DNA of 33,491 nt, from positions 1 through 33,491 of IMG/VR virus record IMGVR_UViG_3300025410_000053. One strand, 5' to 3'. Under the pieces are notes generated by a model. It searched no databases and was not told where the DNA came from. It was given only the letters and a program-made list of their open reading frames with translations. Shown in pieces: positions 1,251 through 26,600 of the stretch. A program made the position numbers and the translations under genes. Position 1 is the first letter of the stretch; each line of letters begins with the position of its first letter. Source of the DNA: a virus.

Positions 1251-1259
1251 GTATTTATA
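1251..1259 (-). promoter_or_regulatory. T4-like late promoter motif (TATAAATAC) next to the gp13 ATG
   Basis: On the minus strand TATAAATAC ends 3 bases before the gp13 start. In T4 late promoters transcription starts about 6 bases after TATAAATA, which here falls on the ATG itself. The motif matches the consensus fully; promoter activity is inferred. Confidence 0.55.
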
Positions 1260-2355
1260 GATTTTTGTCTTTATAAAAATCTAGGTTTTTCTTCAATCTT
1301 TCTTCATTTGGAAATAATTTTACTGCTTCTTCACCATATCGAAGTGCTTCTTTATAATGTCCTGTATAATACGCACCTAGTGCTGCTAGATCATATGGTT
1401 CCCAACCCCACGAAGCACTATCGTAGATATAACTCATAGATCTTTCTGTTATATCTATGGCCTTTGACGCAGCCCAATAACAAGTACGCCAGTCACTTAA
1501 AGCATAAGCAGCACGAGCAACTTCTACCCAAGGCTCTCTAGTATTATTACATTCTAAAAGGCCTTTCATTGCTGCGTCTACACTTGTTTGAAGGTTACCC
1601 ATACTTCTATAGCATTTAGACATAAATCGTAAACTAGCACATCGTTCTTCATTCCATCTAGCAGTTGGTAATGCTAAATGTCTTTCAAATTCTGTAATTG
1701 CTTCAATCCAACGATTGTTGTACATAAGTTCTCTAGCATAATAATGACACATGCGATCATTTTCAGGTGCTTCTTCAACAGCCATTTTAAGTAAATGTAG
1801 ATACTGTCCTCTGCTCTTTGTAGGATCTGCTCTATGATGTAAAATAACCTCAGGAACAACTTCTTTTATTTCAGGTCCTTTACCTTCCCAATAAAGTGTT
1901 TCGTGACAGGGATGTCGCCAAATATATCCGTTTCTATGGTGGAATTTATCTGTAAAGAATCTTATGTCAGGAGTAACTCCATCTTCTTTCCAATTCCAAA
2001 TATAATCATAGGTAATTCTAGTTAACTTACCTTCGCTCTTTTGCCAAGCCTCATTCACTGCTTCTCGCCAACCTGGTTGTAAGTATTCGTCTAAATCAAT
2101 ACTTAAACATAAGTCGAAGTCTTTTGGTACTAGACTTAACGCTGTATTTCTTGGAACATCAAATCTCCAAGGTTTTTGTTTTATATTATAGACAGTTGCT
2201 CCATATCTTTCTAATAAAGGAACGGTCTGATCTATTGATCCTGTATCACAAACTATTACAAGATCAGCATCTTTGCTTGCGTTCATAAAACGTTCAACAT
2301 GTTTTTCTTCGTTAAGAGCAATGGTATAGATACAAACCTTAGGAGGATTGATCAT
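1255..2355 (-). CDS. Glycosyltransferase family 2-like with TPR-like C-terminus (downstream copy)
   Basis: A 366-aa probable GT-A fold sugar transferase. Residues 7-16 (VCIYTIALNE) are the first beta strand. DTGSID at 37-42 fits the nucleotide-sugar site, PWRFDVPRN is at 62-70, and DLD at 87-89 is the metal-binding DXD-type motif. A HPCHETLYW segment follows. From about residue 200 the sequence turns into helical pairs ending with YYTGHYKEALRYGEEAVKLF, typical of TPR repeats. It is colinear with the neighbouring 355-aa protein: DTGS and DLD occupy identical positions, so the two are duplicates. Its start overlaps the upstream gene by 17 bases and AAGGA precedes the ATG. It probably glycosylates a virion protein or other acceptor; the sugar and target are unknown. 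Confidence 0.8.
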   Translation of the reverse strand: MINPPKVCIYTIALNEEKHVERFMNASKDADLVIVCDTGSIDQTVPLLERYGATVYNIKQKPWRFDVPRNTALSLVPKDFDLCLSIDLDEYLQPGWREAVNEAWQKSEGKLTRITYDYIWNWKEDGVTPDIRFFTDKFHHRNGYIWRHPCHETLYWEGKGPEIKEVVPEVILHHRADPTKSRGQYLHLLKMAVEEAPENDRMCHYYARELMYNNRWIEAITEFERHLALPTARWNEERCASLRFMSKCYRSMGNLQTSVDAAMKGLLECNNTREPWVEVARAAYALSDWRTCYWAASKAIDITERSMSYIYDSASWGWEPYDLAALGAYYTGHYKEALRYGEEAVKLFPNEERLKKNLDFYKDKNL

Positions 2356-3406
2356 TTAATTTTTCCTTATAGAATTTTAAGTTATGTATTAATCTAGTAT
2401 CATCTGGCATTAATTTTAATGCCTCTTCGCCATACTCAACTGCTTGTTTAGTGAAACCAATATGATAAGCAGAAAGAGCAGCATAGTCATAAGGTAATGC
2501 TCCCCACGCTTTAGGATCTTGCGTAAATCCATCTCTCTTTATTTCTACTGATAAACATTTCTTAGCAGCAATATAACATTGTTCCCAATCTTCTCTATTA
2601 TGCCAATAATCTGCATAATTAAACCAAGATTCTCTTTCGTTGCTATCAGTTACACTAATTTGAAACCATTTTTCTGCTGAGGTATAATCTTCCATTGCGA
2701 CATAATTTTTAGCAATGATTTTAGCAATATATGATTTAACAACAGGTCCATCGTCGCATTTTTCATAACTAATTAAGCGTGTTTTAACACATTCTTTCAT
2801 GTTTCCTGTTGATTCATATTCACCAGCAAGGAAGGCATATGTACGCCAATTCTGATCATCTTCACTAATTTTCTTTAGTAATAAATTAAGATAACTTCTA
2901 TTCTTTGTAACGTCTTGTTTTTCATCTAAGTAGAATTCATCGAGCCAAATTGCTTTTTCAGGTACAGACCATTTGAGTGTTTCATGTACAGCACCAGTCC
3001 ACCAACAATTATGTCTAGCATGTATTTTGCTATGCCACTGCCAAGGATTATCGTTATTTCTATAACGATGATTTGCTATAGTTGTATCCTCAGTCCAATT
3101 ATCTTCTATTTGTTTTCTCCAGCCTTCTAATAAAGCCTCATCTAAGTCTTGCCATATACAAACATCAATGTCTTCTGGAACTAGATTTAATGATGTATTT
3201 CTAGCAACATCAAATCGCCAAGGGTTTACTGTTATATCATAAACAGTAACACCTTTAGATTTTAATAATTCTACAGTATTGTCTGTTGAACCTGTATCGC
3301 AGACTATTCTTAAATCTGCGTCTTGATTGGAAGCAGCCCACCGTTCAACATGTTGTGATTCGTTTTTACAAATAGTATAGATAGCTATTTTAAGTTTTAA
3401 CATCAT
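2339..3406 (-). CDS. Glycosyltransferase family 2-like with TPR-like C-terminus (upstream copy)
   Basis: A 355-aa paralogue of the downstream gene. Residues 7-16 read IAIYTICKNE, DTGSTD is at 37-42, PWRFDVARN at 62-70 and DLDE at 87-90; a GAVHETLKW segment matches the acceptor region of its sister. The C-terminal half carries TPR-like helices (YHIGFTKQAVEYGEEALKLM). Two ATG codons are adjacent (3406 and 3403) and no clear Shine-Dalgarno lies before them. It lies between two virion genes, so it is probably expressed late, which fits modification of structural proteins. The conserved DXD and DTGS elements suggest both copies are active. Base or nucleotide modification of phage DNA is a less likely alternative, because the TPR tail suggests a protein partner. 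Confidence 0.8.
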   Translation of the reverse strand: MMLKLKIAIYTICKNESQHVERWAASNQDADLRIVCDTGSTDNTVELLKSKGVTVYDITVNPWRFDVARNTSLNLVPEDIDVCIWQDLDEALLEGWRKQIEDNWTEDTTIANHRYRNNDNPWQWHSKIHARHNCWWTGAVHETLKWSVPEKAIWLDEFYLDEKQDVTKNRSYLNLLLKKISEDDQNWRTYAFLAGEYESTGNMKECVKTRLISYEKCDDGPVVKSYIAKIIAKNYVAMEDYTSAEKWFQISVTDSNERESWFNYADYWHNREDWEQCYIAAKKCLSVEIKRDGFTQDPKAWGALPYDYAALSAYHIGFTKQAVEYGEEALKLMPDDTRLIHNLKFYKEKLNDQSS

Positions 3407-4032: not shown

Positions 4033-5559
4033 ATGCCACGTTTAAGTCTTTATAAACCCGAAAAAGGTAATGATTTTAAGTTCATAGATCAACAAATCTA
4101 TGAGATGTTTCAAGTAGGCGGTACAGATGTTTTTATACATAAGTATCTAGGTCCTGTTGATCCTAGTGATCCCAATAAAGCCTTAGATCCTACTACAATC
4201 CAAGATGTACTTCTATTAGAAAATAGAGATAGAAAATATGATACAACAGTGTATCCTATACGCGGTGTTTATAATGTACAAGATATTGATTTTAATCTAA
4301 GTCAATTTGGATTATTTTTACAAAATGATACAATATTCTTAACAATTCACATTAATAACAGTGTCGACACCTTAGGCCGTAAGATTATCTCAGGTGATGT
4401 TATTGAATTACCTCATCTTATAGATCCATATGCATTGGGAAATTTAGCATTTGCTCTTAAGAGATTTTATGTTGTAGAAGATATTAATAGAGCAGCAGAA
4501 GGTTTCTCTATGACATGGTGGCCACACCTTTATAGATTAAAATGTAAACCTTTAACAGATAGTCCAGAATTTAAAGATATTCTTAATATTCCAGTTAATG
4601 CAGACATGTTTGCTGGAGACTTTGATGCAACTAAACATTATTGTCCCGGAGTTATTGTGAGATATAACGGTCAATTATATGAAGTGATTGCAGAATCTGA
4701 TTCTAGTCTAAATGTTCCACCTGATACTAATTTCTTTCGTTTATTAAATCCAAACGAAGTTACAGGAAGTGGACTTAGTGATTATCTTACTATTCTAGCA
4801 ATCAATAATAGTGTTGTAGCACAAGCAGAAGCAGATGCTCCTAAAAGCGGATTTGAAACTCAACAATTTTGGACATTATCAGTTGATAGAGATTCTGGAC
4901 AAGTTGATTTATTAACGGTTGATCAAACAAATATTGCAATTGATGATTCTGATACAACAGATGAAACCATGGTATCGCCCGACAAGGATGGTTATCAGGG
5001 ATACTTAGTAGGAGACGGTATACCTCCTAATGGTGCTCCATATGGGTTCGGAATACAATTTCCAGCAGGTGCAGCATTAGGTGATTATTTCTTACGTACA
5101 GATTATTATCCAAATCGCTTATTTCGTTTTGATGGAAAACATTGGATAGCATTTGAAGATAACGTACGTATGACTATGACAAATAATGATCAAAGACAAA
5201 CACAAAGAACTTCATTTATTAATAATACACAATTAAGTGGTGTTGGTTTACTTAATATAGATGTATTCACAGTTGCAGATCCAATGGTATTCCGACCAAC
5301 TGATCCTACGTTAAGTCTCAATCTTATAACCAATACAATTGTTACAAAAGATACATATAATACTATGTATGGTGTTGAAATGTTCCAAAATGAGAATAGA
5401 AACCCAGTTACTAGTACATTTAATGAAGGTGGAAAGCTTGCTTTTACTTTTCAATATTCTTTAGCAGTTGGCGACCGAATACAATGGTCATTATATGAAC
5501 AAACTGTACAACAAAGACAGGCAGTATCAAAAGCACTTAGACCGAGGGCTGATTTCTAA
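4033..5559 (+). CDS. 14: Neck protein, T4 gp14-like, with C-terminal extension
   Basis: A 508-aa protein, against 256 aa for T4 gp14, which completes the head-tail connector with gp13. The first 195 or so residues carry the gp14-type pattern: FIDQQIYEMF, GGTDVFIHKYLGP, a QDIDFNLSQFGLFLQND strand pair, SGDVIELPHL, then FALKRFYVVEDINRA and WWPHLYRLKCKP. After this lies a YCPGVIVRYNGQLYEVIAES segment resembling a small carbohydrate-binding-type module (about residue 203), and a GDYFLRTDYYPNRLFRFDGK segment (about 355-375), both familiar from aquatic T4-like neck proteins. The stop overlaps the next ATG (TAATG), so translation is coupled to what follows. Family assignment is by pattern only; the extended C-terminus has no clear role. 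Confidence 0.75.
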   Translation: MPRLSLYKPEKGNDFKFIDQQIYEMFQVGGTDVFIHKYLGPVDPSDPNKALDPTTIQDVLLLENRDRKYDTTVYPIRGVYNVQDIDFNLSQFGLFLQNDTIFLTIHINNSVDTLGRKIISGDVIELPHLIDPYALGNLAFALKRFYVVEDINRAAEGFSMTWWPHLYRLKCKPLTDSPEFKDILNIPVNADMFAGDFDATKHYCPGVIVRYNGQLYEVIAESDSSLNVPPDTNFFRLLNPNEVTGSGLSDYLTILAINNSVVAQAEADAPKSGFETQQFWTLSVDRDSGQVDLLTVDQTNIAIDDSDTTDETMVSPDKDGYQGYLVGDGIPPNGAPYGFGIQFPAGAALGDYFLRTDYYPNRLFRFDGKHWIAFEDNVRMTMTNNDQRQTQRTSFINNTQLSGVGLLNIDVFTVADPMVFRPTDPTLSLNLITNTIVTKDTYNTMYGVEMFQNENRNPVTSTFNEGGKLAFTFQYSLAVGDRIQWSLYEQTVQQRQAVSKALRPRADF

Positions 5560-6101
5560 TGCATATTTATAAATTTACTCATATAGAATCAGGAAAGTGT
5601 TATATAGGACAAACAATACAAGATCCTAATCAGCGTCGTCTTGAGCACATTAATCATTCTAAACGTTCTTCTAGAGAATATCATTTTCATAATGCTTTAA
5701 GGAAATATGGATTAGATTCTTTTTTATTTGAAGTTATAGATACAGCAAACTCGTTAGAAGAATTAAATTTGTTAGAAGAATTTTATGTAGAGAAATTTGA
5801 TTCTATCAATAATGGTTATAACATTAGACAACCTGGAAATAATAAAATACATTCTGAAGAAAGCAAACAACGTATGAGAGAAGCACAAAAGGCTGCTCAT
5901 GCCAGACGCCGAGAAGAGAATAATGGTGTAGAAAAACATTCTAGTCCAAGAAGTCATAAAGGTAAAACAGGTTTATGGATAAGTAACAAACGGGGTAAAG
6001 AAAGTACGAAATGGAAAAATAAAGGGTCTATGAGTTGGAAGTTAATAAACGGTAAACGTGTTTGGTTTATAAAGGAGAACGACAATTCAATGGTTCTATG
6101 A
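5559..6101 (+). CDS. GIY-YIG homing endonuclease (free-standing)
   Basis: A 180-aa DNA endonuclease. The catalytic domain spans about residues 1-90: IYKF at 3-6 and CYIGQT at 14-19 are the two halves of the GIY-YIG motif, with R27 and H30 on the following helix, and E73/E74 before FYVEKF as the probable metal ligand, then NGYNI. DNA-binding elements follow: a NUMOD3-like segment (IHSEESKQRMREAQKA, about 96-111) and basic W/N/G-rich repeats toward the C-terminus (KGSMSWKLINGKRVWF). It starts at the ATG overlapping the gp14 stop and ends inside the 5' end of gp15. Such enzymes cut uninserted alleles and spread their own gene. There is no room for a group I intron, so it is called free-standing. 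Confidence 0.9.
   Translation: MHIYKFTHIESGKCYIGQTIQDPNQRRLEHINHSKRSSREYHFHNALRKYGLDSFLFEVIDTANSLEELNLLEEFYVEKFDSINNGYNIRQPGNNKIHSEESKQRMREAQKAAHARRREENNGVEKHSSPRSHKGKTGLWISNKRGKESTKWKNKGSMSWKLINGKRVWFIKENDNSMVL
6071..6087 (+). promoter_or_regulatory. Shine-Dalgarno and ATT start of gp15
   Basis: AAAGGAG (6071-6077) stands 7 bases before ATT (6085-6087), the position of Met1 in gp15-like proteins. The site lies within the 3' coding end of the endonuclease gene. An in-frame stop (6070-6072) sits just upstream, so no earlier start is possible in this frame; ATT is the best placed candidate. Confidence 0.65.
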
Positions 6102-7443
6102 CGGCCAAGTACGCCGATATCTTTCTCAAATAATTAGAATGTTAAGTGACTTTAAAATTAAAACGGCTGACGGTGTTGAAAAAGTTGTTCCTGTAATTTA
6201 TGGAGATATGACTAGACAAGTTGGAAGCATTTTAAAAGATGGATCTGAAAACAAGTTGCTCTCAACTCCTCGTATTGCTGTTTATATGACAGATCTAGTA
6301 TTTGATAGAGATCGTCTAAGTGATTCAAGTTTTGTTAGTAAATTTAATGTTAGAGAAAGACAAATAAACTCACAAACAGGAAAATATGATACAGAACAAG
6401 GAATAAATTATACAATTGAAAGATTAATGCCTACTCCTTATAAATTAACAATTAAGGCAGATATCTGGGCATCAAATACTGATCAAAAATTACAAATATT
6501 AGAACAAATTTTAGTATTCTTTAATCCTAGTTTTGAAATACAAACTACAGACAACTATGTTGATTGGACTAGTCTTACAACAGTTGAATTAACTGATTTA
6601 GTTTTAACAAGTAAAACTGTACCAGTCGGTGTCGATAGTGAGATAGATATTGCAACTATGGAATTTGAAACACCTATATGGATAACTCCTCCAGCAAAGG
6701 TTAAAAGATTGGGAGTTATACAAACTATTGTTGCTAATATTTTTACAGAACCAGCAGGCGAAATTGATCCTTATTTTTTACTTGGACAACCAGATTCAAC
6801 TCAATATATTACACCAGGTTTTTTTGGATTGCTAGTTATTAACAATACAGCAAGATTATTAAATCCAGGAGAGAGTATTAGTAATGAAGAAATACCTCAA
6901 AAATATGGAACAAATGTAAATTGGTACAAATTACTCGACGAATATGGAAAATTTCGTGCAGGTACAAGTAGAATGTTTCTTAAAAAAGCAGATGGTACAG
7001 AAATTGTAGGTGCAATGAGTATTCATCCTACAGACGAATCCCTTGCTATAATTAATTGGGATCCAGATACATATCCTACAAATACAATTATACAAAACAG
7101 AGGAACAGTTGATGCTATTATAGATCCTCTAACTTATGCTCCTCCAACTAATATTGCTCCCGGTATTAGATATCTATTATTAGAATCAATAGGATCAACT
7201 ATAAATTCTGATGGAGCAGATGCTTGGAAAAATAGAGATAATAGTGATTTCATTAGTGATGCTAATAATATTATCGAATGGGATGGATCAAAATGGAATA
7301 TAGTATTCAATGCTGCATCTACTACAGACATTACCTATATAACTAATTTAAGAACTAGTATACAGTATAAATGGGACGGAGAAGCATGGACCAAGAGTTT
7401 CGAGGGAGAATACAGAAACGGACTATGGCGTCTGATGTTGTGA
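6085..7443 (+). CDS. 15: Proximal tail sheath stabilisation protein, T4 gp15-like
   Basis: A 453-aa protein when read from ATT at 6085; the first ATG is at 6139. T4 gp15 (272 aa) caps the top of the tail tube and sheath and binds the neck. The segment before the ATG reads QWFYDGQVRRYLSQIIR, which aligns with YFYNSSFRRY near the start of T4 gp15, so it is almost certainly translated. Then come PVIYGDMTRQV, PRIAVYMTDL, VSKFNVRER, ERLMPTPYKLTIKADIW, DQKLQILEQILVFFNPSFEI and a MEFETPIWITPPAKVKR strand, all colinear with gp15. The last 200 or so residues are an extension not found in T4, ending with a WDGEAWTK segment. It follows the inserted endonuclease and overlaps the Nudix gene. Confidence 0.8.
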   Translation: MQWFYDGQVRRYLSQIIRMLSDFKIKTADGVEKVVPVIYGDMTRQVGSILKDGSENKLLSTPRIAVYMTDLVFDRDRLSDSSFVSKFNVRERQINSQTGKYDTEQGINYTIERLMPTPYKLTIKADIWASNTDQKLQILEQILVFFNPSFEIQTTDNYVDWTSLTTVELTDLVLTSKTVPVGVDSEIDIATMEFETPIWITPPAKVKRLGVIQTIVANIFTEPAGEIDPYFLLGQPDSTQYITPGFFGLLVINNTARLLNPGESISNEEIPQKYGTNVNWYKLLDEYGKFRAGTSRMFLKKADGTEIVGAMSIHPTDESLAIINWDPDTYPTNTIIQNRGTVDAIIDPLTYAPPTNIAPGIRYLLLESIGSTINSDGADAWKNRDNSDFISDANNIIEWDGSKWNIVFNAASTTDITYITNLRTSIQYKWDGEAWTKSFEGEYRNGLWRLML

Positions 7444-7877
7444 CAAAAAAAATTCGTGGTAGTGGTGCTTTATTTCTCAGTCAAAATACTAAAAGATTTC
7501 TTTTATTACAAAAATCATCAGGAAAAAAAGAAGGAATTTGGGGATTAGTTGGTGGAAAAACAGAAAATGATGAATCTGTTTGGCAAGGCCTATGTAGGGA
7601 AATTAATGAAGAAATTGGATTCATGCCAGAAATAATTAAATCAATTCCTTTAGAAACATTTGTTAGCGACGATACACATTTTAATTTTCAAACCTATGTT
7701 TGTATAGTAAAAGAAGAATTTATTCCAATATTAAGTAGCGAACATAAAGGATGGGCATGGTCAGAATTAGATTCGTGGCCAAAGCCCGTACATCAAGGAA
7801 TAAGAAATACACTACATAATAAAGTTATTAGAGCAAAAATTGATACAATTTTTGAATTTTTATCTCTATTATCTTAG
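7425..7877 (+). CDS. Nudix hydrolase
   Basis: A 150-aa enzyme of the Nudix family, which cleaves nucleoside diphosphates linked to another moiety X. The Nudix box is perfect: G44-x5-E50-x7-R58-E59-I-N-E62-E63-I-G65-F (counting from the ATG at 7425). Before it lie the strand GSGALFLSQN and WGLVGGK, as expected. The frame is open further upstream, with ATGs at 7371 and 7386 inside the gp15 end. The 7425 start was chosen because the domain begins right after it and overlap with gp15 is only 19 bases; 7386 has a closer GGAG and is possible. Substrate (for example dNTP, ADP-ribose, dinucleotide or RNA cap) cannot be read from the sequence. A metabolic enzyme at the end of a neck operon is unusual. 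Confidence 0.9.
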   Translation: MASDVVTKKIRGSGALFLSQNTKRFLLLQKSSGKKEGIWGLVGGKTENDESVWQGLCREINEEIGFMPEIIKSIPLETFVSDDTHFNFQTYVCIVKEEFIPILSSEHKGWAWSELDSWPKPVHQGIRNTLHNKVIRAKIDTIFEFLSLLS

Positions 7878-16146: not shown

Positions 16147-19100
16147 TTATACTGATTCTTGGATACCTATTGCTACCGCAGTTACCTGTGGCTGATTACT
16201 TGAAACATACAAGTAAGTATTTGGAGGAACAAGTATACCTGTTCTTTCAAATGTACCGTTTGGTGATAATGAAACATCGTGCTCAATAAAGTCAGTATAT
16301 GACGGTAGTGAGTTGATTGTCATAATGTTTGTACCAGTAGCATAGTTACCTGGAACAGTACCAGATGCGTTTGTAATTGGCCAAGTTGAACCATTTAGTG
16401 TAGCCGATAGCATAATTCTTCTGCTATCAAGTACTGCTTTAACATAGTAATGTGGTATAGCATAGAAACCACCAACTGTTGACTGTGAAGACCAAGCAGC
16501 GGAGAATGTTACTGCTGTAGTGCTTGGCCAACTTGAAGCAACTGTAATTGTTGTAGTTGAAATGCTAAGAACATAATATGTCACGAATGGTGATACACCA
16601 GTTGAAGATGTAATCGGTGATAGTGGGTTTGTAAACACTATCGGTTGACCTATTACTAGTAAACTAGCTGCAGATGTGTTCAATGTAATGTTACCGTTTG
16701 TAGCAACTGCTGTTACTATGAACGGAGTACCTGGAACTGGAGCACCGTTGAATGTACTTGTACCTGCTGTTGCACCTACACCAAACGTTGTACCACTATA
16801 TGCTGTAAATGTTACAGGAGTGTTTGGTACAAAGAATGTATTTGTTGCACCCTGTGCTTGAGCAAGTGTAACAATGTTACTTGCAACGTTAACTATAGTA
16901 TTACCTGCTGTTTGTGTTACAGCGGACGGTACTGTTAATGTTAAACCACTTGCAGTTGCAGCAGATGTTGAAATCTGGAATGTATTTGGAGTTGGTGTTG
17001 CCAATACAAAGTAAGTTGAGTAAGGTATTAATGATGAACCTAAGTTACTTACAATTTGCATTGTTAAAGTATTAGTTTCAGTTACCCAAGTTATTACAGT
17101 ACCACCTGGTGTTGCACTTAGAGTAAATGTATTATTATCTAAGATAGCCTTAATGTAGTAAACTGTACCTGGCTGTATAGTACCACTTGTTTGGCTAGTA
17201 TAACCATAACCTGTGAACACTACTGCTTGGTTAGCACTTAATAATATTGTACTATTTGGAGTATATAGATTCTGTCCGTTAACAATAGTTACGTTAATCT
17301 GTGCTCCAGTAAATGCAATTGGTTGTGATGGACCAATTACGTTTGACATATTTGTTAAGTAGTTTGCAGTTGATCCAGTCATAGTCATATAACCATATGT
17401 TGTGGTTGAGATTGCAAGTGATGTGCCTGCTAACGCATTAGCTAACGATGAAGCTAATGTAAATGTTGTAGAACTTGGAATCGAAGCAACATAAAAAGCT
17501 GGATTATATGCAACGGTATAGCTACTAGTAAATGAAATATATCCAGTTCCTGTAACTAACATTGGTTGACCTACCGTCATTAATGCTGTCGACGGTTGAA
17601 GTGTAACAGCACCAGTACCTTGTGTTAGAATAGCAACTTGACCACCCCAAGTTTGTGATACTGTAAACTGTGTTGCGTTAATAATTTGAACAACATAGTA
17701 TGTTGTAGCAGATGCTAGTGAACCAATAGCCGAACCAAATACAACTGGCATACCAACTGCTAGTGCAGATGTACTATAGCAAGTGATATAGTTTGTACCG
17801 TATGATGTATTTGTAACAATAGTTAAGTTACCAGTAGTGAACACGTTTGATGATGTTGTACCACTATAAATTGGCATTGGCTGTGTGATCATTACGTTTG
17901 ACGCAACAGTCCATGTTGATAGTGGAACCATTATCATAGCCGCCGTAGTACCAGTATTGTTAACTGCTGAGAATGTAAATGCCGAACCGCCAGGTGTAGT
18001 TGATACTGACAATGTGCCACTCATTGGATTAGTAAATGTAGGGTTAACATAGTAAATTGTACCCTGTGTTAAGCCTGCAATCATTACACCACCAATAGTT
18101 GGATAAAATACAACTGCTTGGTTCTGTTGTAATCTTGCTAAACTTTGTACAGCTGACATAGTACCTGTTGTAGTCTGTTGTGTTAGTGCAACACCGTTTG
18201 CTGTCTGTAGAACAGTTGTACCGTTTGTTGCAATACCAATTGACCCAACTGGTGCAGTAGAAATAATAAATCTTTTTTCGTCATATACAGATACTACATA
18301 GTAAAGAACGTTATTTGATAAAAATCCGATCGATGTACCTGTAAACGATAGAGCCATACCTGGATACATTGCAAATGTGTTACTTGCTGTAACAAGCATC
18401 TGACCACCGTTAATTGCGGCAGTAGCAGTTACAGAAAAACTTTCAGTTTGCAGTACTGAAGTACCGTTGTTAGTTGAGTTAAAACTAAGAGATCTATAAG
18501 AACCAACTTGTGCCATCATAAAGCTTGGTGCTGTAGCAGTTGTTGTTGTGAGTGATAACTGTGTGCCTACACCACCTGACTGAGTACTGACAACAAATGT
18601 TGTACTACTTACTACGTTAGTTACATAGTATGTTACAGCATAGTTAGAAGCAGCAGTCAAACCACCTAATAATGTACCAGTAAATGTTACTGGTTGATTA
18701 ATCTGTAAGAATGATGTTATTTGGTTCATTGTAGTACTACCGGAACCTGTAATAATCAAGTCTGGTCCGCCAAAGAACTGTGAAATACTAAATGTGGTAG
18801 TTGACTGTATCGAAGAGATATAGTAAGTAATACCACCTGTAATACTACCAGTATTTGCAGCAAATGTAATTGGTTGTCCAAGTACAAATGCTGTTGTACC
18901 ACCTGATGTTGATATTGATATCAAGTTTGTACCTGATGCACCTAGTGAAACGCTGTAAGCCTGTGTAGTTAAAATGTTAGTACTTGTTGTTGTAGCACCA
19001 ATAGCAAGAGTTGGTGTTACGTTGTATGAATAAGCAGTAGCAATACCTGTTGCACTTAACGGAACAAGAATACAGTTACCACTAGCACCTGTTAATACAA

Positions 19101-22100
19101 CTGGAGTACCTGGAGTTGTAGTGTAAACGTTAAATGTAGTAGAACTTGCAATTGCATTTACATAGTAAACAGTTGGGTTAATAAGACTGTTAACTGAAGC
19201 AGTTAAACCACCAAATGTTGTACCAACAAATATTACAGGTTGTCCAACTGTAAGTGATGCAGTACTTGATATTGTAATATAATATGGACTAGATCCTGAT
19301 GTAGCAGTTACTACAAGTGGTGCAACTGCTGGTAGTGGAAATAGTCCTAAACCAGACTGTGTAACACTTGAACCTACTCTTGAAAGTATAAGTGATGTTA
19401 AACTTGGTGTACTTTGAACTACCCAGTTCTGACCATTAGTATTATATTGCTGACCGAATATACCTTGCTGTCCTGCAAACTGTGTTGAAGTAGTAGTTAA
19501 AGTAAGTGCAGATCCACTTGGAGTAGCTGATACTGTAAATGTTGTTGTACTTGGTGTACTTAATACATAGTAAGTTGTACCAGCAACAACACCACCAATA
19601 CTAGCAGTACCTTGTGCCATATTACCGAATACAATTGGCTGACCAATTATTAAGTTGTTTGTAGTATTACAAGTTAATAAGTTACCTGATGAACTTGTAC
19701 CAGTAATAGTTACAGTTGGTGAGTTCAATATAACAGTTTGGTTAGCGGAGTAACCAGATGTTGCTTGTTGAACTGACATCGTACCACTACCTGTTGTTAA
19801 TGCTACAACTGGACCACCATATGTAGATGAAATATTAAACTGTGTAGTACTTGCAATTGAGTTTACATAGTAAACTGTATTTGCAGATACACCGCCTAAT
19901 AATGTAGTACCTGTGAATATAATTGGTTGTCCAACTGCTAAGTTAACTGTATTAGCACAAGTTAGATAATATGTTGGACTTGTACTTGATGTAGCTGTTA
20001 CAGTAACAGGATTTGTTGTGTAAGCAAATACGTCAACAATGTTATTAACAATTGGGTTAGCAAGAATTATGTTACCACCTGTTACAGTAGCAGTAGTTGC
20101 AGATGTACCGGCAACGTTTTGTGCTGTTGAAATTGTAAAGGTTGTAGTAGACACAATACTGTTAATAAAATATGTAGTACCAAATGTAATACCAGTTGAT
20201 GTTGCTGTACTAAGTGGATAAGTAAATCCTTGGAACTGTATTTCTTGGTTAATGTACAATAGTGATGTAGCCTGTTGTACGTTTACAGAACCTGTTGCTG
20301 TAGCAAGAGCAAATGTATTTCCACCTAGTGTTGGTGAAACTGAAAATGCTGTTGCTGTTGGAATACTTGCAACATAGTAAATCATACCACTGACTAAGTT
20401 ACCTAAAGCACCACTGAATACAACTGGCATACCTACTGTTAAAGCAAATGTATTTGATACAGTAATTAAGTTAGTTGTAGCTGTAGTTGCTGTAACTGCA
20501 TAAGTCTGTGTTGCTAACTGGTTTGATGAAACACTTGACTGAATTGTTATTACTGGTCTTGGACCAATTAATGTTGGCATTGTACCAGTTGTTGCTGTTA
20601 ATGTAGAGATCTGTCCAAATGGTGAAGTTGAAATTGTAAACTGTGTTGCAGATGGAATAGTTCTTACATAGTAAGTAGTATTAGTAGTAGTACCACCGAA
20701 TGCTGTACCTGTTACATATATTGGTTGCCCAGCAAGAAGGTTAGTAGTTGCATGTTGTACTGTACTACTACCTGGAATACCTGCTGTTAATGGAACAATT
20801 GGACCACCGTATGTTGCAGATATCTGTATAGAGTTAGTTGGGTTATCATAATATGTGATGTAATAAGTTGGAACACCAGTAAATGATACTGTAGCAGTTG
20901 TTAGTGTAAGGTTTGTACCATATGGTGTTGTTGATACAGTAATATTTGCACCTGAAATCGATGTAATATAATAAACTGTACCTGTAATAATACCACCACC
21001 ACTAGCACCAAACACAATTGCTTGACCAACATAAAGACCAGTAGCACTTGCTAATGTAATTACGTTAGTTCCTGATGTAGTTGCTGTAACTGATACAAAT
21101 GCAACAATACCGTTCGAATTAGCAAGTGAACCACCGATAAAGAATGTAACTGGCTGACCTGTCATAAGTGGAACTGCAGAACCAATAACAACGTTAGTTG
21201 TAGTAGTGCTGCTTATTGAATATGTTGAAGTTGTATAAGTGTTGTTTAAAGGATAAACTGTACCAGTTGCAGTTGATGTTCCTAGTGTAATTGTAGGAAT
21301 AACTGACTGGAATGTAGCAAGCATAGAACCTGCTGCTACAGTAGTTAATGTAAGAGGAGTTGGCGCACCATGGATGCTTGAAACTACAACTTGTGTTAGT
21401 GAAGGAACACTGTATACATAGTATACCTGTCCTGGAACTAATCCAGAGAATGTACCTTGTTGAGCCGTTACGGAACCTGAAGCATTGGACATGCCGTATA
21501 CAGCACCACCCGATGTTTGGCTGATAGTAAATGTAGTAGTACTACCACCTGTAACTGCTGACACATAGTAAACTGTACCACCTGTAATAGTACCAATTGT
21601 TCCACTGAATACTATTGGCTGGTTTGCTACAAGATTTACAGTATTATTACAAGTAATTAAATTACCAGTTGACGATGTTGCTGTAACTGAAATTGTTACG
21701 GTAGCAAACTGCAACGGTTGGTTTGTTGCTAAACCAGTAGTTGCTTGAGACATTGCTACAGACTGACCTGTAGTAGTGATTAGAGGGAATGCTACACCGC
21801 CTTGTGTTGTTGAAACAACCAATTGTGTTAAACTGTAAACGTTTAATACATAGTAAACAGTATTAGCACTAAGTCCACCAACAGCAGAAGCAAATACAAC
21901 TGGTTGTCCTGGAACAAAGTTTGATGTATTTGTTACAGTAATTAAGTTTGTACTTGCTGTAGTTGCTGTAACAGTTGTTGAAAAAGTGTTAAAATATGGT
22001 AATGCTTGGGCAGTTAATGTACCTGTACCAGATGTTAAACTTAATGCAGTACCACCTTGTGTTGCACTTACCTGGAATGTAGTTCCACCAAAACCACTTA

Positions 22101-23646
22101 CAACATAGTAAGTTGTATTAGCAATAAGACCACCAATACTAGCACTGAATACGATTGGTTGGTTTGCTACTAAACCAGTTATACTAGTAGCAGTAATTAA
22201 GTTTGTACCAGTAGTTGTAGCACTAATGTTTAGAGTTACACCTGCTTGAGAACTACCAAAAACAAGTTGTGGAACTGTTGGAGGAACAAACGCCGATGCA
22301 ACCATTGTACCTGTGGTAGTTGTTAAAGGAAATACTGGTCCACCTGGCCAAGTTGAAACAGTAAATGTGTTATTACTTGGAACTGTTGAAATATAGTATG
22401 GAGTATTTGGAGTAATATTACCAAAAGAAGTACCAGTGAAAATTATCTGCTGGTTAGTCTGAAGGTAGTTTGTACTTAGATACATTGTAACACCACTGAT
22501 ACTAGCATTAGTTGCTATTGAGAATGGATTACCGTTATAAGAAGTACTAACAGTAAATGTTGTAGAACTTAATACTGAGTGAACATAATATGTAATGTTA
22601 GCATAAAGAGCAGAACCAGTAACTGTTGCGTTGAATACAATTGGTTGTCCTGCTGTTAAGAGGTATGCGTTACCACTAGTTGTTAAATAACCAAAACCTA
22701 ATGTACCTGAAGCAGCAGTTGATGCAGTAATCGAAAATGATGCTGTAGTTAATACGTTAGTTGATGCTGTTGATGCTATTACAGTAATACCTTGTAAAGT
22801 ATTATAGTAGCCTGACTGAGCAGTTGTATTAAGTGCAATTGCTGAAGTCATTGCAGTTGGATACTGAGCGGTTTGTGGGTTAGCAACTGGAGTAACTACT
22901 GGAACGCAGGACATTGTACCAATTGCAGAAATTAAAGGTAATGTTGGACCACCTGGGAATAATGAAATAGTAAATGTTGTACCATTTGAACCACCTGGTA
23001 AACTTGCAACATAATAGTTCATGTTATAAAAAGCATAACCAAATGTAGTACCGTGGAAGTTAATTGGCATACCAACTGACAGGTTAGTTACAGTTTGTTG
23101 GACAATCATAGGAAATGTACTAGTAGTTAACATTTGAACTGGTCCGTTCCAAATTGGAGAAACAGTAAATGTTGTTGAACTAGGAATAGTTAGGATATAA
23201 TAAACTGTACCTGCTGTTAAGTTACCAACCGAAGCACTGAATACAACTGGTTGACCAACTGTAAATGTTGCAGTACTTGATACTGTAATAACGTTTGTAT
23301 TTTCAGTAGTTGCTGTAACAACATATGATGCTGTTGAAAATGCATTAGTAATTGCTGATGCAGTATCAATTGTTAAAACTTGTTGTGTTTCAACAAGTGT
23401 TGATGCTGCACTCTGTTGTGCAACAAATGACTGCGATCCATGAACGTTTGAAACAACTTGTGATCCAATTGGGGTATTAGTTAAAGCAACTCTAACTCTG
23501 GCATCATATGCTGCTCTGTTAGTGATGTTGGTATTAACTACGGTATTTGTAGTACTTGGGTTTGTACTTGGTAGTGGAACTAACTGTTGGTAATTGAATG
23601 GATTACCGTTTAAGTCTTGTGCGCCATATTTTGCCGCTGTTGTCAT
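16147..23646 (-). CDS. Giant repeat virion protein (2499 aa), beta-rich
   Basis: A unique N-terminus of about 105 residues (MTTAAKYGAQDLNGNPFNYQ ... YDARVRVALTNTPIG) and a C-terminal 70 residues (FIEHDVSLSPNGTFERTGIL, then PPNTYLYVSSNQPQVTAVAI) flank roughly 2300 residues of degenerate repeats. These termini resemble short virion proteins of aquatic T4-like phages, so the giant looks like a small protein swollen from within. The repeat is about 80 residues: VTATT..TNLITV, GQPIVFS..GG.., TVYYV..I.S.TTFTVS...GG, then TTTGTM. Composition is dominated by Thr, Ser, Val and Gly with almost no charge. AGGAG precedes the ATG. It is longer than any T4 protein (the largest, gp34, has about 1290 aa). 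Probably an extended fibre or surface decoration; it is not helical, so not a tape measure. Confidence 0.75.
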   Translation of the reverse strand: MTTAAKYGAQDLNGNPFNYQQLVPLPSTNPSTTNTVVNTNITNRAAYDARVRVALTNTPIGSQVVSNVHGSQSFVAQQSAASTLVETQQVLTIDTASAITNAFSTASYVVTATTENTNVITVSSTATFTVGQPVVFSASVGNLTAGTVYYILTIPSSTTFTVSPIWNGPVQMLTTSTFPMIVQQTVTNLSVGMPINFHGTTFGYAFYNMNYYVASLPGGSNGTTFTISLFPGGPTLPLISAIGTMSCVPVVTPVANPQTAQYPTAMTSAIALNTTAQSGYYNTLQGITVIASTASTNVLTTASFSITASTAASGTLGFGYLTTSGNAYLLTAGQPIVFNATVTGSALYANITYYVHSVLSSTTFTVSTSYNGNPFSIATNASISGVTMYLSTNYLQTNQQIIFTGTSFGNITPNTPYYISTVPSNNTFTVSTWPGGPVFPLTTTTGTMVASAFVPPTVPQLVFGSSQAGVTLNISATTTGTNLITATSITGLVANQPIVFSASIGGLIANTTYYVVSGFGGTTFQVSATQGGTALSLTSGTGTLTAQALPYFNTFSTTVTATTASTNLITVTNTSNFVPGQPVVFASAVGGLSANTVYYVLNVYSLTQLVVSTTQGGVAFPLITTTGQSVAMSQATTGLATNQPLQFATVTISVTATSSTGNLITCNNTVNLVANQPIVFSGTIGTITGGTVYYVSAVTGGSTTTFTISQTSGGAVYGMSNASGSVTAQQGTFSGLVPGQVYYVYSVPSLTQVVVSSIHGAPTPLTLTTVAAGSMLATFQSVIPTITLGTSTATGTVYPLNNTYTTSTYSISSTTTTNVVIGSAVPLMTGQPVTFFIGGSLANSNGIVAFVSVTATTSGTNVITLASATGLYVGQAIVFGASGGGIITGTVYYITSISGANITVSTTPYGTNLTLTTATVSFTGVPTYYITYYDNPTNSIQISATYGGPIVPLTAGIPGSSTVQHATTNLLAGQPIYVTGTAFGGTTTNTTYYVRTIPSATQFTISTSPFGQISTLTATTGTMPTLIGPRPVITIQSSVSSNQLATQTYAVTATTATTNLITVSNTFALTVGMPVVFSGALGNLVSGMIYYVASIPTATAFSVSPTLGGNTFALATATGSVNVQQATSLLYINQEIQFQGFTYPLSTATSTGITFGTTYFINSIVSTTTFTISTAQNVAGTSATTATVTGGNIILANPIVNNIVDVFAYTTNPVTVTATSSTSPTYYLTCANTVNLAVGQPIIFTGTTLLGGVSANTVYYVNSIASTTQFNISSTYGGPVVALTTGSGTMSVQQATSGYSANQTVILNSPTVTITGTSSSGNLLTCNTTNNLIIGQPIVFGNMAQGTASIGGVVAGTTYYVLSTPSTTTFTVSATPSGSALTLTTTSTQFAGQQGIFGQQYNTNGQNWVVQSTPSLTSLILSRVGSSVTQSGLGLFPLPAVAPLVVTATSGSSPYYITISSTASLTVGQPVIFVGTTFGGLTASVNSLINPTVYYVNAIASSTTFNVYTTTPGTPVVLTGASGNCILVPLSATGIATAYSYNVTPTLAIGATTTSTNILTTQAYSVSLGASGTNLISISTSGGTTAFVLGQPITFAANTGSITGGITYYISSIQSTTTFSISQFFGGPDLIITGSGSTTMNQITSFLQINQPVTFTGTLLGGLTAASNYAVTYYVTNVVSSTTFVVSTQSGGVGTQLSLTTTTATAPSFMMAQVGSYRSLSFNSTNNGTSVLQTESFSVTATAAINGGQMLVTASNTFAMYPGMALSFTGTSIGFLSNNVLYYVVSVYDEKRFIISTAPVGSIGIATNGTTVLQTANGVALTQQTTTGTMSAVQSLARLQQNQAVVFYPTIGGVMIAGLTQGTIYYVNPTFTNPMSGTLSVSTTPGGSAFTFSAVNNTGTTAAMIMVPLSTWTVASNVMITQPMPIYSGTTSSNVFTTGNLTIVTNTSYGTNYITCYSTSALAVGMPVVFGSAIGSLASATTYYVVQIINATQFTVSQTWGGQVAILTQGTGAVTLQPSTALMTVGQPMLVTGTGYISFTSSYTVAYNPAFYVASIPSSTTFTLASSLANALAGTSLAISTTTYGYMTMTGSTANYLTNMSNVIGPSQPIAFTGAQINVTIVNGQNLYTPNSTILLSANQAVVFTGYGYTSQTSGTIQPGTVYYIKAILDNNTFTLSATPGGTVITWVTETNTLTMQIVSNLGSSLIPYSTYFVLATPTPNTFQISTSAATASGLTLTVPSAVTQTAGNTIVNVASNIVTLAQAQGATNTFFVPNTPVTFTAYSGTTFGVGATAGTSTFNGAPVPGTPFIVTAVATNGNITLNTSAASLLVIGQPIVFTNPLSPITSSTGVSPFVTYYVLSISTTTITVASSWPSTTAVTFSAAWSSQSTVGGFYAIPHYYVKAVLDSRRIMLSATLNGSTWPITNASGTVPGNYATGTNIMTINSLPSYTDFIEHDVSLSPNGTFERTGILVPPNTYLYVSSNQPQVTAVAIGIQESV
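16366..23328 (-). repeat. About 25 tandem degenerate modules (about 240 bp each) in the giant gene
   Basis: By eye I count about 25 copies of two alternating kinds. Type A has VTATT..TNLIT and GQP(V/I)VFS. Type B lacks that lead and has (N/G)QPI.FTGT.FG. Both share YYV..I.S.TTFT(V/I)S...GG. Copies differ in sequence but stay in frame. Exact count needs self-alignment. Confidence 0.7.
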
Positions 23647-23679: not shown

Positions 23680-26600
23680 TTACCAGGCATTTGTCCATAA
23701 TGTATTTAGTGATAATGTACTTCTAGCTCTAGTCAAACTTGAAGAAGCAGCATCAATTGCTGTTTGAACGTTTGTTGCTGCTAAACCGGATGTTGCATTA
23801 TTATAGTAAATGTCTGATGCTGCTGCATTGACCAGATGATAACCTAAACTATTAACACCGCCGTTTATGATTTGATAACGAAGATCAATATATGTTGTTC
23901 CGTTATCTAATGTCTGAACAGCACCCGTTGAGTTAATAACTACAGCTCCAATCCAAACAAAATCCATGTTAGGTAAACCAACAAGACTTGTGTCTCTTGG
24001 TTCAGTTGATGCCGACTGTCTTGCAGCGGCAAGTGATGTGAATACTTTTTGTCCTACAAGTTTCATAACACCACCACGTATTTTATCACTTGTAGCAATA
24101 AAATATGTAACTGTGTACTGACCTGTTGTGAGTGTTGTTAATGCACCCGAACCGTTATATTGTGCAGTACCACCTGTTAAATAACCAAAGTTATTATCAG
24201 CAGTACCTACAGTCCATACTCCAGCAATATTATACAACCAATAGTTAGTTGATAGTGATGCAAAAGTATGTGTTAATTCTTGTACTGCGGTAGAACCTGC
24301 TACTGTATTAGTATATGTGGTAGCACCTGATGTTGCACCAACAACACCTAAACCAGTCTTATATACAGCACCAGTAGAGTTAATCAAATAACGGTGAACT
24401 GTACCTGGCATATTAATTCCGAGTGTTTTTCTCGAAAATACAGCAAATGTGTTAGTGCTATCTGTACCTGTTGCAACTGCAAATAGTGCTAAACTTTCAT
24501 AATATGAGTCTTGAATAGTTCCAGATGTATAAGATACTATACCACTTGGTCCAAAGAAGAAGTAATTAAGATTGTTTAGACTTGCGTATGTTCCAGTTAT
24601 CATTGATGTATAAGTGTATTGAATACCACTTACCCATACTGTAAATGAAGTCTGTCCGCTAACTGGATATATTACAATAGTTCTAGCACTTGCAGCTCTT
24701 GCATATGATGTACCAGTACCAAATGTTGAGTCTGCTCTTGTAGTTGCAGTTAAGTTTTGATCTATCTTAACAATGTTAACACCGTCATTTGAAATTTCAA
24801 CTATACCAATGCTAGTAAGACTGCTGAGATTGAAACCATTTGGTAAAAGTGTTGTTGTACGACCATTATCAACATACGTCTTAACAGCAGATTCAGTAGG
24901 AACACTAAGGCTACTATTATTAACTAAAGTTCCATCTGTAGAGAACTTAGTGATAGTTGCTCCAGTTAATGTACCAATTGCACCTAGTTGTAAGGATGAT
25001 GCACCAGTTATAGCAAATGCTGCTGGATTAAGTGTAGCAACACCTGTTTGCTGATTAACGTTAAAATAACTACCAATTTTAACGTTTCCGTATTCGTTGA
25101 TTGATTCGTAGTATACTCTACCAGGTAATCCTTGAACAATTTCGTTTGCTGGAGTTGGACCTGATAACGGAGTTCCTGGATAGTTTGTATTTGTTACACC
25201 ACCTGTACCAACATAGAAGAACTCATGTGCTTCTGCTTTAACAACTGATGTTTGAGAACGGAAAGATGCTGATGTACTATTTGCATATGTTGTAACAGTA
25301 GTGGATGCTAAAAGAATTGTTATTACTGTTGACGAGTTAACCCAAGTTCCGTTAACTGCTTGAACAACATAAGAATCTGTACCGTTTAATGTAATAACAC
25401 TACCAGCAACAGGTTGTGCAGTTAAAGTATTCAATGTAAATGAGTTACCTGTTTGATTACTTAATGCACCTGTAGTTACTGTACCTGTACCACCACTAGT
25501 AAATGTTAGCAAGTCATTAACATTAAATGTTCCTGTAGCACTAGTAACAAATACTTTATTTTGTGTTAGTTGGACACCGATAACTGTAGCAGTACCACCA
25601 CTAGTTACTGAAGTAACAGTATCACCTACGTTAATATTACCTGTGTTATATGTAAAGTTTAATTGTTGTCCAACAACATTACCAGTAATTGCAGTTTCTG
25701 AAGATAGATAACCTCTAGAAGTTAAACCATAAGTACCCCAGTTTGTTTTACAATTGTTAAGTCTTATAAAACCACCATTTGTAGCAGCATAACTGAAATA
25801 GCAATATGATGTTGCGCTTGTAATTACTTCAGGTCTTGCATTATTTGTAGCCCAAATACCAACACCTGTATCACTTTGAACGTTAAAATAACGGAAACTT
25901 GCTGTTTTTAATCCAGTAACTACTGAACCATCTAGATAAGCACCGATTGCTCCTGAAGCCGTACTTGTTGTACAATTTGAAACACTCGGTGGTCTAGTAA
26001 TTGCTCCTGAATTAAATCCAATATAGATACCTTTAGGAGTTGATGTTGTAATGTCGTTTGCTGTTCCACCTGGAACCCAACCAGTCATATTCTGGAATGT
26101 CATTTCACGAAGAGAAGTATTATCACTTAGTTTAAACATTGTTGATTGATTGTTTGGAATTAAACCAGTTAAGTCACCGTATTGTGTAGCACTGATTGAT
26201 CCTGTAGCAGTTCCTGGATTAAAAACTGAACCACCTGATGTTAAACTTACTTGGAAAGTAGTTGCACCAAAACCACTTACAATATAATAAACAGTACCTG
26301 CAACAAGATTACCTAGATTAGCACTAAATGTTATTGGTGCATTTGCTATGAAACTTGCTGTACTACTTGCTGTAATTAAGTTACCAGTTGATGAAACTTG
26401 AGTAACTGTAGTTGTTACGCTAGTTCCGCTAACTGGATTAACAAATGTTGTTCTAACGTTATCACCAATAACTGCAACACCTGCTGGAACAGTAATTGGA
26501 AGAAATTCATTATATGTTCCTGATTTGACAAAAATTGTGTATCCTGAACTTGCTTGAGTACAAGCATATCTAATACTTGCAAAAGGTAATGCTAAACTTG

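Follow-up and report, generated by a model that had tools for sequence, protein, structure and literature searches.

A homing endonuclease inserted behind the gp15 start codon of T4-related phages probably supplies a replacement translation start that outlasts the enzyme gene

The locus described here raises the question of how an essential tail gene can be translated once a homing endonuclease has taken over its start codon. The window, by which we mean the whole stretch of 33,491 bases that was analysed, carries a gp14-like structural gene, a GIY-YIG endonuclease ORF, gp15 and a NUDIX gene, in this order (Table 1). The initial annotation had read a TAATG in which the upstream stop overlaps the ATG of the endonuclease gene, and a gp15 frame that resumes at CAA with no ATG of its own; both readings hold. 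It had further proposed that 526 bases were inserted directly after the gp15 start codon, and that the invader now provides the start signal on which gp15 relies. Comparison with related phages makes it very likely that the element did insert at this point, that its 3' end acts as the new gp15 start, and that this module has been kept through erosion of the endonuclease.

Table 1. Coordinates of the features of the gp15 locus in the window.
Feature	Position	Strand	Basis or remark
gp14-like structural gene	4033..5559	+	PHROG 11591 'virion structural protein', 8.8e-85; stop TAA at 5557-5559
ATG overlapping the upstream stop (TAATG)	5559..5561	+	Proposed old gp15 start, now endonuclease start; empty relatives
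GIY-YIG homing endonuclease ORF, 180 aa	5559..6101	+	PF01541, PHROG 314; final codons overlap gp15
Insert, 526 nt, between old gp15 ATG and codon 2	5562..6087	+	Compared with empty relatives
TAA, closest upstream stop in gp15 frame	6070..6072	+	Bounds the possible gp15 starts
Shine-Dalgarno (SD) AAGGAG, insert-borne	6072..6077	+	Same placement relative to AUH in 18 of 19 distinct junctions among the matches listed
Proposed gp15 start AUU	6085..6087	+	7 nt past the Shine-Dalgarno sequence
gp15, tail sheath stabiliser / tail terminator, from the proposed AUU	6085..7443	+	PF16724; T4 gp15 structures 4huh, 3j2m
Internal ATG (codon 18), rejected as gp15 start	6139..6141	+	Met not conserved; codons 2-20 constrained

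The downstream frame corresponds, beginning with residue 1, to the tail sheath stabiliser gp15 of T4 (PF16724, 3.1e-22), so that the domain is present from the N-terminus onward, and it also matches the solved T4 gp15 (about 3e-6). The only match of the upstream gene is to the 'virion structural protein' PHROG, and the name gp14 is given to it by position and synteny only. In the isolated Pseudomonas phage PA5oct, a structural protein, gp15 and a NUDIX gene stand in the same order, and gp15, which is annotated there as detected by mass spectrometry, starts at an ATG overlapping the upstream stop. We note that the NUDIX ORF of the window (7371-7877) starts within the end of gp15, and that a NUDIX gene follows gp15 in both PA5oct and GAP32. 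The ORF lying between the two genes carries a GIY-YIG catalytic domain (PF01541, E = 2.2e-5, 25.1 bits against a cutoff of 22.6) and resembles PHROG homing endonucleases, with a best value of 3.6e-24. Relatives of the protein were found in 31 loci, and a sequence search against solved structures returned no match.

Among relatives the endonuclease is either present or absent at one fixed site. Dozens of empty sites read TAATG|CAATGG or a near variant (for instance ...TAATG|CAATGGTTCTATGA in L030, and alike in L027), which is the junction that the initial annotation had predicted for endonuclease-free relatives. The insertion point is seen most directly in a near-isogenic pair, L165 with the insert and L227 without it, which are identical at 98.7% of gp15 and 97.4% of the upstream gene at the DNA level, and in which 528 nt separate the ATG region from codon 2. 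Three further contigs (L001, L002 and L005) share the junction of the window. These comparisons suggest that a free-standing GIY-YIG homing endonuclease inserts right behind the gp15 start codon in T4-related phages, and that the old gp15 ATG, coupled to the upstream stop, would have been captured as the start of the enzyme. Cleavage of the empty site and homing by this endonuclease are likewise inferred from the sequences. On the gp15 tree, presence or absence of the element changes 29 times among 155 sequences, in a direction that cannot be told, which indicates that it often moves or is exchanged. As a separate observation, codons 2-4 of gp15 differ between L165 and L227 (D-W versus D-Y) despite the 98.7% identity elsewhere; conversion of a short stretch together with the insert would produce such a difference, and co-conversion of this kind during homing is possible.

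In the window, codon 2 of gp15 is CAA at 6088, and no ATG, GTG or TTG lies between it and the in-frame TAA upstream. Past that stop, the frame reads AGG AGA ACG ACA ATT CAA TGG. Within this stretch, positions 6072-6087 form AAGGAG-7nt-ATT. This insert-borne ribosome-binding site, whose start codon is AUU, had escaped the initial annotation, and the AUU at 6085 is the sole near-cognate codon at usable spacing downstream of the TAA. We thus infer that gp15 is initiated at an AUH codon, and that the final ~15-35 nt of the element supply the new initiation site, in the window as AAGGAG - 7 nt - AUU. The proposed dependence of gp15 on a signal borne by the invader is well supported.

Across the wider family, the element closes at its 3' side with GGAGG, a hairpin, 7 nt and then AUU, AUC or AUA. 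In IMG/VR, 97 stretches contain the pattern GGAGGCNNCGGTTTAACNCCG; each of the 103 occurrences that were read lies immediately ahead of gp15 codon 2. The core of the motif was dictated by that initial pattern, which makes its invariance circular in part, and the first hairpin alignment, built from loci with the fixed core, shows little variation there; later IMG/VR scans anchored on gp15, in which the spacing was left free (4 to 13) and junctions with or without endonuclease were taken, ease this circularity. Among the matches listed, and counting distinct sequences rather than independent events, the codon at the start position of hairpin junctions is ATT in 13, ATC in 13, ATA in 11 and TCG in 23, and never ATG. 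The spacing between the SD and an AUH codon without a hairpin is 7 in 18 of 19 distinct junctions, and that of AUG junctions spans 4 to 13 and is most often 9, both again among the matches listed. The hairpin class keeps 7 nt between the hairpin base and the start codon, and in a 14-nt class the additional base bulges out of the stem.

Both folds and covariation indicate a hairpin between the SD and the start in the wider family. Indeed, 26 distinct 19-nt hairpins among the matches listed in the gp15-anchored scan have 85% paired cells (shuffles: 75%) and 23 double changes (at most 20 in 2000 shuffles), figures that are not strict probabilities because the hairpin sequences are related. Six of the seven pairs change on both sides in this set, as in L297 (CATCGG/CCGATG) compared with L298 (CATTGG/CCAATG). 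At the level of these alignments, a conserved module with its spacing and a covarying hairpin is demonstrated, and in most relatives the folded hairpin would place the SD 7 nt from the AUU, AUC or AUA. The window has no such hairpin, AAGGAG being followed directly by 7 nt and ATT. Since its endonuclease nests among those of hairpin-bearing relatives, the simplest history is that the hairpin was lost and the spacing preserved.

A non-AUG start is not obligatory, as some members of the family keep AUG or GUG: endonuclease variants at the same site precede a gp15 with ATG in L167, L379 and L156, the latter with a different perfect hairpin, 7 nt and then the ordinary ATG, and with GTG in L246. An SD plus ATG is also present in other gp15 relatives, and the idea that SD plus AUG is forbidden was refuted by such junctions in the gp15-anchored scans. 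A search of isolated phages for the same module found none, and that of bacterial genomes gave only two marine contigs, both with an ordinary ATG.

The fate of the element after insertion can be followed in dozens of related phages in which the endonuclease has decayed and the replacement gp15 start signal is kept. Inserts measure about 490-594 nt with the full ORF and 34-272 nt with remnants, which retain its first codons (MHIYK..) and its last (..EASV and stop), the latter holding both the SD and the hairpin. The series runs from the full ORF ending in ..EASV through MHIYKFIKEASV, MHIMEASV and MEASV, all closed by a stop, to none; at five distinct junctions the ORF is gone altogether (L058, L061, L062, L068 and L122). 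The scars would thus present a micro-ORF, or nothing, ahead of the same ribosome-binding site. All 19 distinct micro-ORFs from inserts shorter than 110 nt preserve the reading frame up to the UAA of the hairpin loop, where one third would be expected by chance (binomial p ~ 1e-9, the micro-ORFs not all being independent events). This full agreement makes it probable that hand-over of ribosomes from the micro-ORF to gp15 has been selected. It suggests that ribosomes must reach the hairpin, stop in it and then restart on gp15, so that ribosomes which finish the endonuclease or a micro-ORF at the stop in the loop probably pass on to gp15. The five junctions without an ORF indicate that hand-over is not an absolute need.

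As gp15 has no start of its own, later deletions in the endonuclease would be kept only if they spare the 3' module. The initial annotation had argued that loss of the element would be costly. This stands for the last ~35 nt with the ribosome-binding site, which are retained, and fails for the endonuclease, which has been lost repeatedly; loss of the enzyme is not costly and loss of the 3' module apparently is. Nor does the dependence fix the element in place, given that whole elements differ between close relatives, as the 29 changes on the gp15 tree attest. Empty sites, complete elements and eroded scars form a natural series, from which it can be read what portion of a selfish gene becomes needed by its host, and the host would depend on a translation start module of ~35 nt, not on the enzyme.

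Other ways of expressing gp15 were weighed against initiation at the insert-borne AUH codon. The ATG at 6139 is the first in the gp15 frame, and a start there would leave the first 17 codons untranslated. This is highly improbable: Met18, which the initial annotation had considered as a possible normal start, is replaced by another residue in most relatives, the FYDGQxRRY stretch before it is nearly invariant, and no SD lies ahead of it. Codons 2-20, moreover, have the same pN/pS at AUH junctions (0.27) as at ATG junctions (0.26), with values above 1 in the shifted frames of the class of junctions ending in ATCG, described below. Scarcely more credible is that the insert is spliced out as a group I intron, skipped by bypassing like that of T4 gene 60, or crossed by read-through or frameshifting from the endonuclease, even if the joined flanks restore the ancestral ATG and codon 2, and if the endonuclease UAA shares the gp15 frame in 13-nt spacers. 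L058, L061 and L122 have no upstream ATG and only GGAGG past the upstream stop, and L006 has two in-frame stops. A group I intron was rejected, as no intron core and no Rfam family match was found, the insert is nearly all coding and scars of 34-37 nt stay. So was bypassing with matched codons, as the take-off codon is altered in EAAV variants and no longer matches the landing codon, and L058 has no upstream ORF; a +1 or -1 frameshift fusion is incompatible with the different frames of the 13- and 14-nt classes.

Distinct from these is the reason for the start codon itself, and here one proposal is compatible with initiation at AUH. T4 virions contain few copies of gp15, and the non-AUG codon could have been retained because a strong SD would overproduce this low-copy protein, with AUH lowering its expression. 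We regard this as a real but tentative possibility. It agrees with the constant distance between SD and AUH and with the lack of any AUG at that position in the main hairpin class among the matches listed; against it, SD and AUG do occur together in L156, in L379 and in further relatives of gp15, and another cause may be that an ATG beside codon 2 might recreate the endonuclease target.

Initiation at AUH does not cover all members of the family. About 18 distinct junctions carry ATCG before codon 2, which puts TCG in the start position, and have no in-frame near-cognate (AUG-like) codon after the stop; their start is not explicable by known rules. Codons 2-20 of this class nevertheless appear to be translated, as their pN/pS (0.23) is like that of ATG junctions and exceeds 1 in shifted frames. 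It is conceivable, if unlikely, that gp15 starts here at a UCG set in the P site by its distance from the SD and hairpin, or at AUC with a one-base skip, either of which would be new. Such a start would fit the purifying selection on codons 2-20 and the distance from hairpin to codon 2, which is constant (10 nt) whichever codon is present, the 14-nt class bulging its extra base. It would also fit near-identical gp15 genes that swap ATT or ATC for TCG (L126/L058 and L175/L179), a swap between close relatives that makes a special host code unlikely, and the CTCG junctions (at least five distinct), where an in-frame AUC one codon earlier could serve as start. On the other side, UCG is not near-cognate to the initiator anticodon, and the TCG end could reflect common descent among elements. 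A special tRNA for UCG was rejected, as none of the 41 tRNAs of a contig carrying this class (G001, IMGVR_UViG_3300027770_001980) has a CGA anticodon. The same contig encodes a CAT tRNA (L200:13440-13513) that is initiator-like in its unpaired first acceptor position (T-T) and lacks the three G-C pairs of the anticodon stem.

Split ribosome-binding sites of T4 genes 25 and 38 were reportedly described by Nivinskas in 1999 and by Malys and Nivinskas in 2009. In these a hairpin shortens the effective spacing from 27 to 11 and from 22 to 5 nt (PMC3014915). The wider family resembles them in that a hairpin between SD and start would cut the effective spacing; it differs in that the start is mostly AUU, AUC or AUA (or UCG) and that the module travels with an endonuclease whose stop sits in the loop, and the window copy has no hairpin. 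The infC gene also begins at AUU and is autoregulated by IF3. It shares with gp15 an SD plus AUU proposed to start an essential gene, whereas autoregulation of the IF3 type is not evident for gp15.

GIY-YIG endonucleases of the T4 seg family are free-standing and carry promoters of downstream genes, such as segG with those of gene 32, and promoters embedded in seg and mob genes are said to favour retention (PMC2988022). Like seg, the element is a promoterless cassette between conserved genes that would give an essential downstream gene its expression signal; here, unlike seg, the signal acts in translation (an SD and a start codon), lies exactly at the start codon and persists as a scar once the enzyme gene is gone. 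In ShiLan, an insertion with a hidden HNH endonuclease sits within a methylase gene, whose reading frame continues through it (PMC11855218). Both are phage endonucleases within coding sequence and without known splicing, and the insert described here differs in displacing the start. A literature search turned up no endonuclease situated at gp15 and none associated with AUU starts.

The junctions amount to a large natural collection of ribosome-binding site variants, with non-AUG starts, an exact 7-nt spacing and an optional hairpin. Gene callers that seek ATG, GTG or TTG would misplace these gp15 starts. Elsewhere in the window, two ORFs of 2499 and 1625 aa on the minus strand (16147-23646 and 23680-28557) are repetitive, Thr/Ser-rich and virion-like. 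Two adjacent paralogous glycosyltransferase-like ORFs, both PHROG 13126, lie on the minus strand at 1255-3406, between a head-tail adaptor gene and the gp14-like gene.
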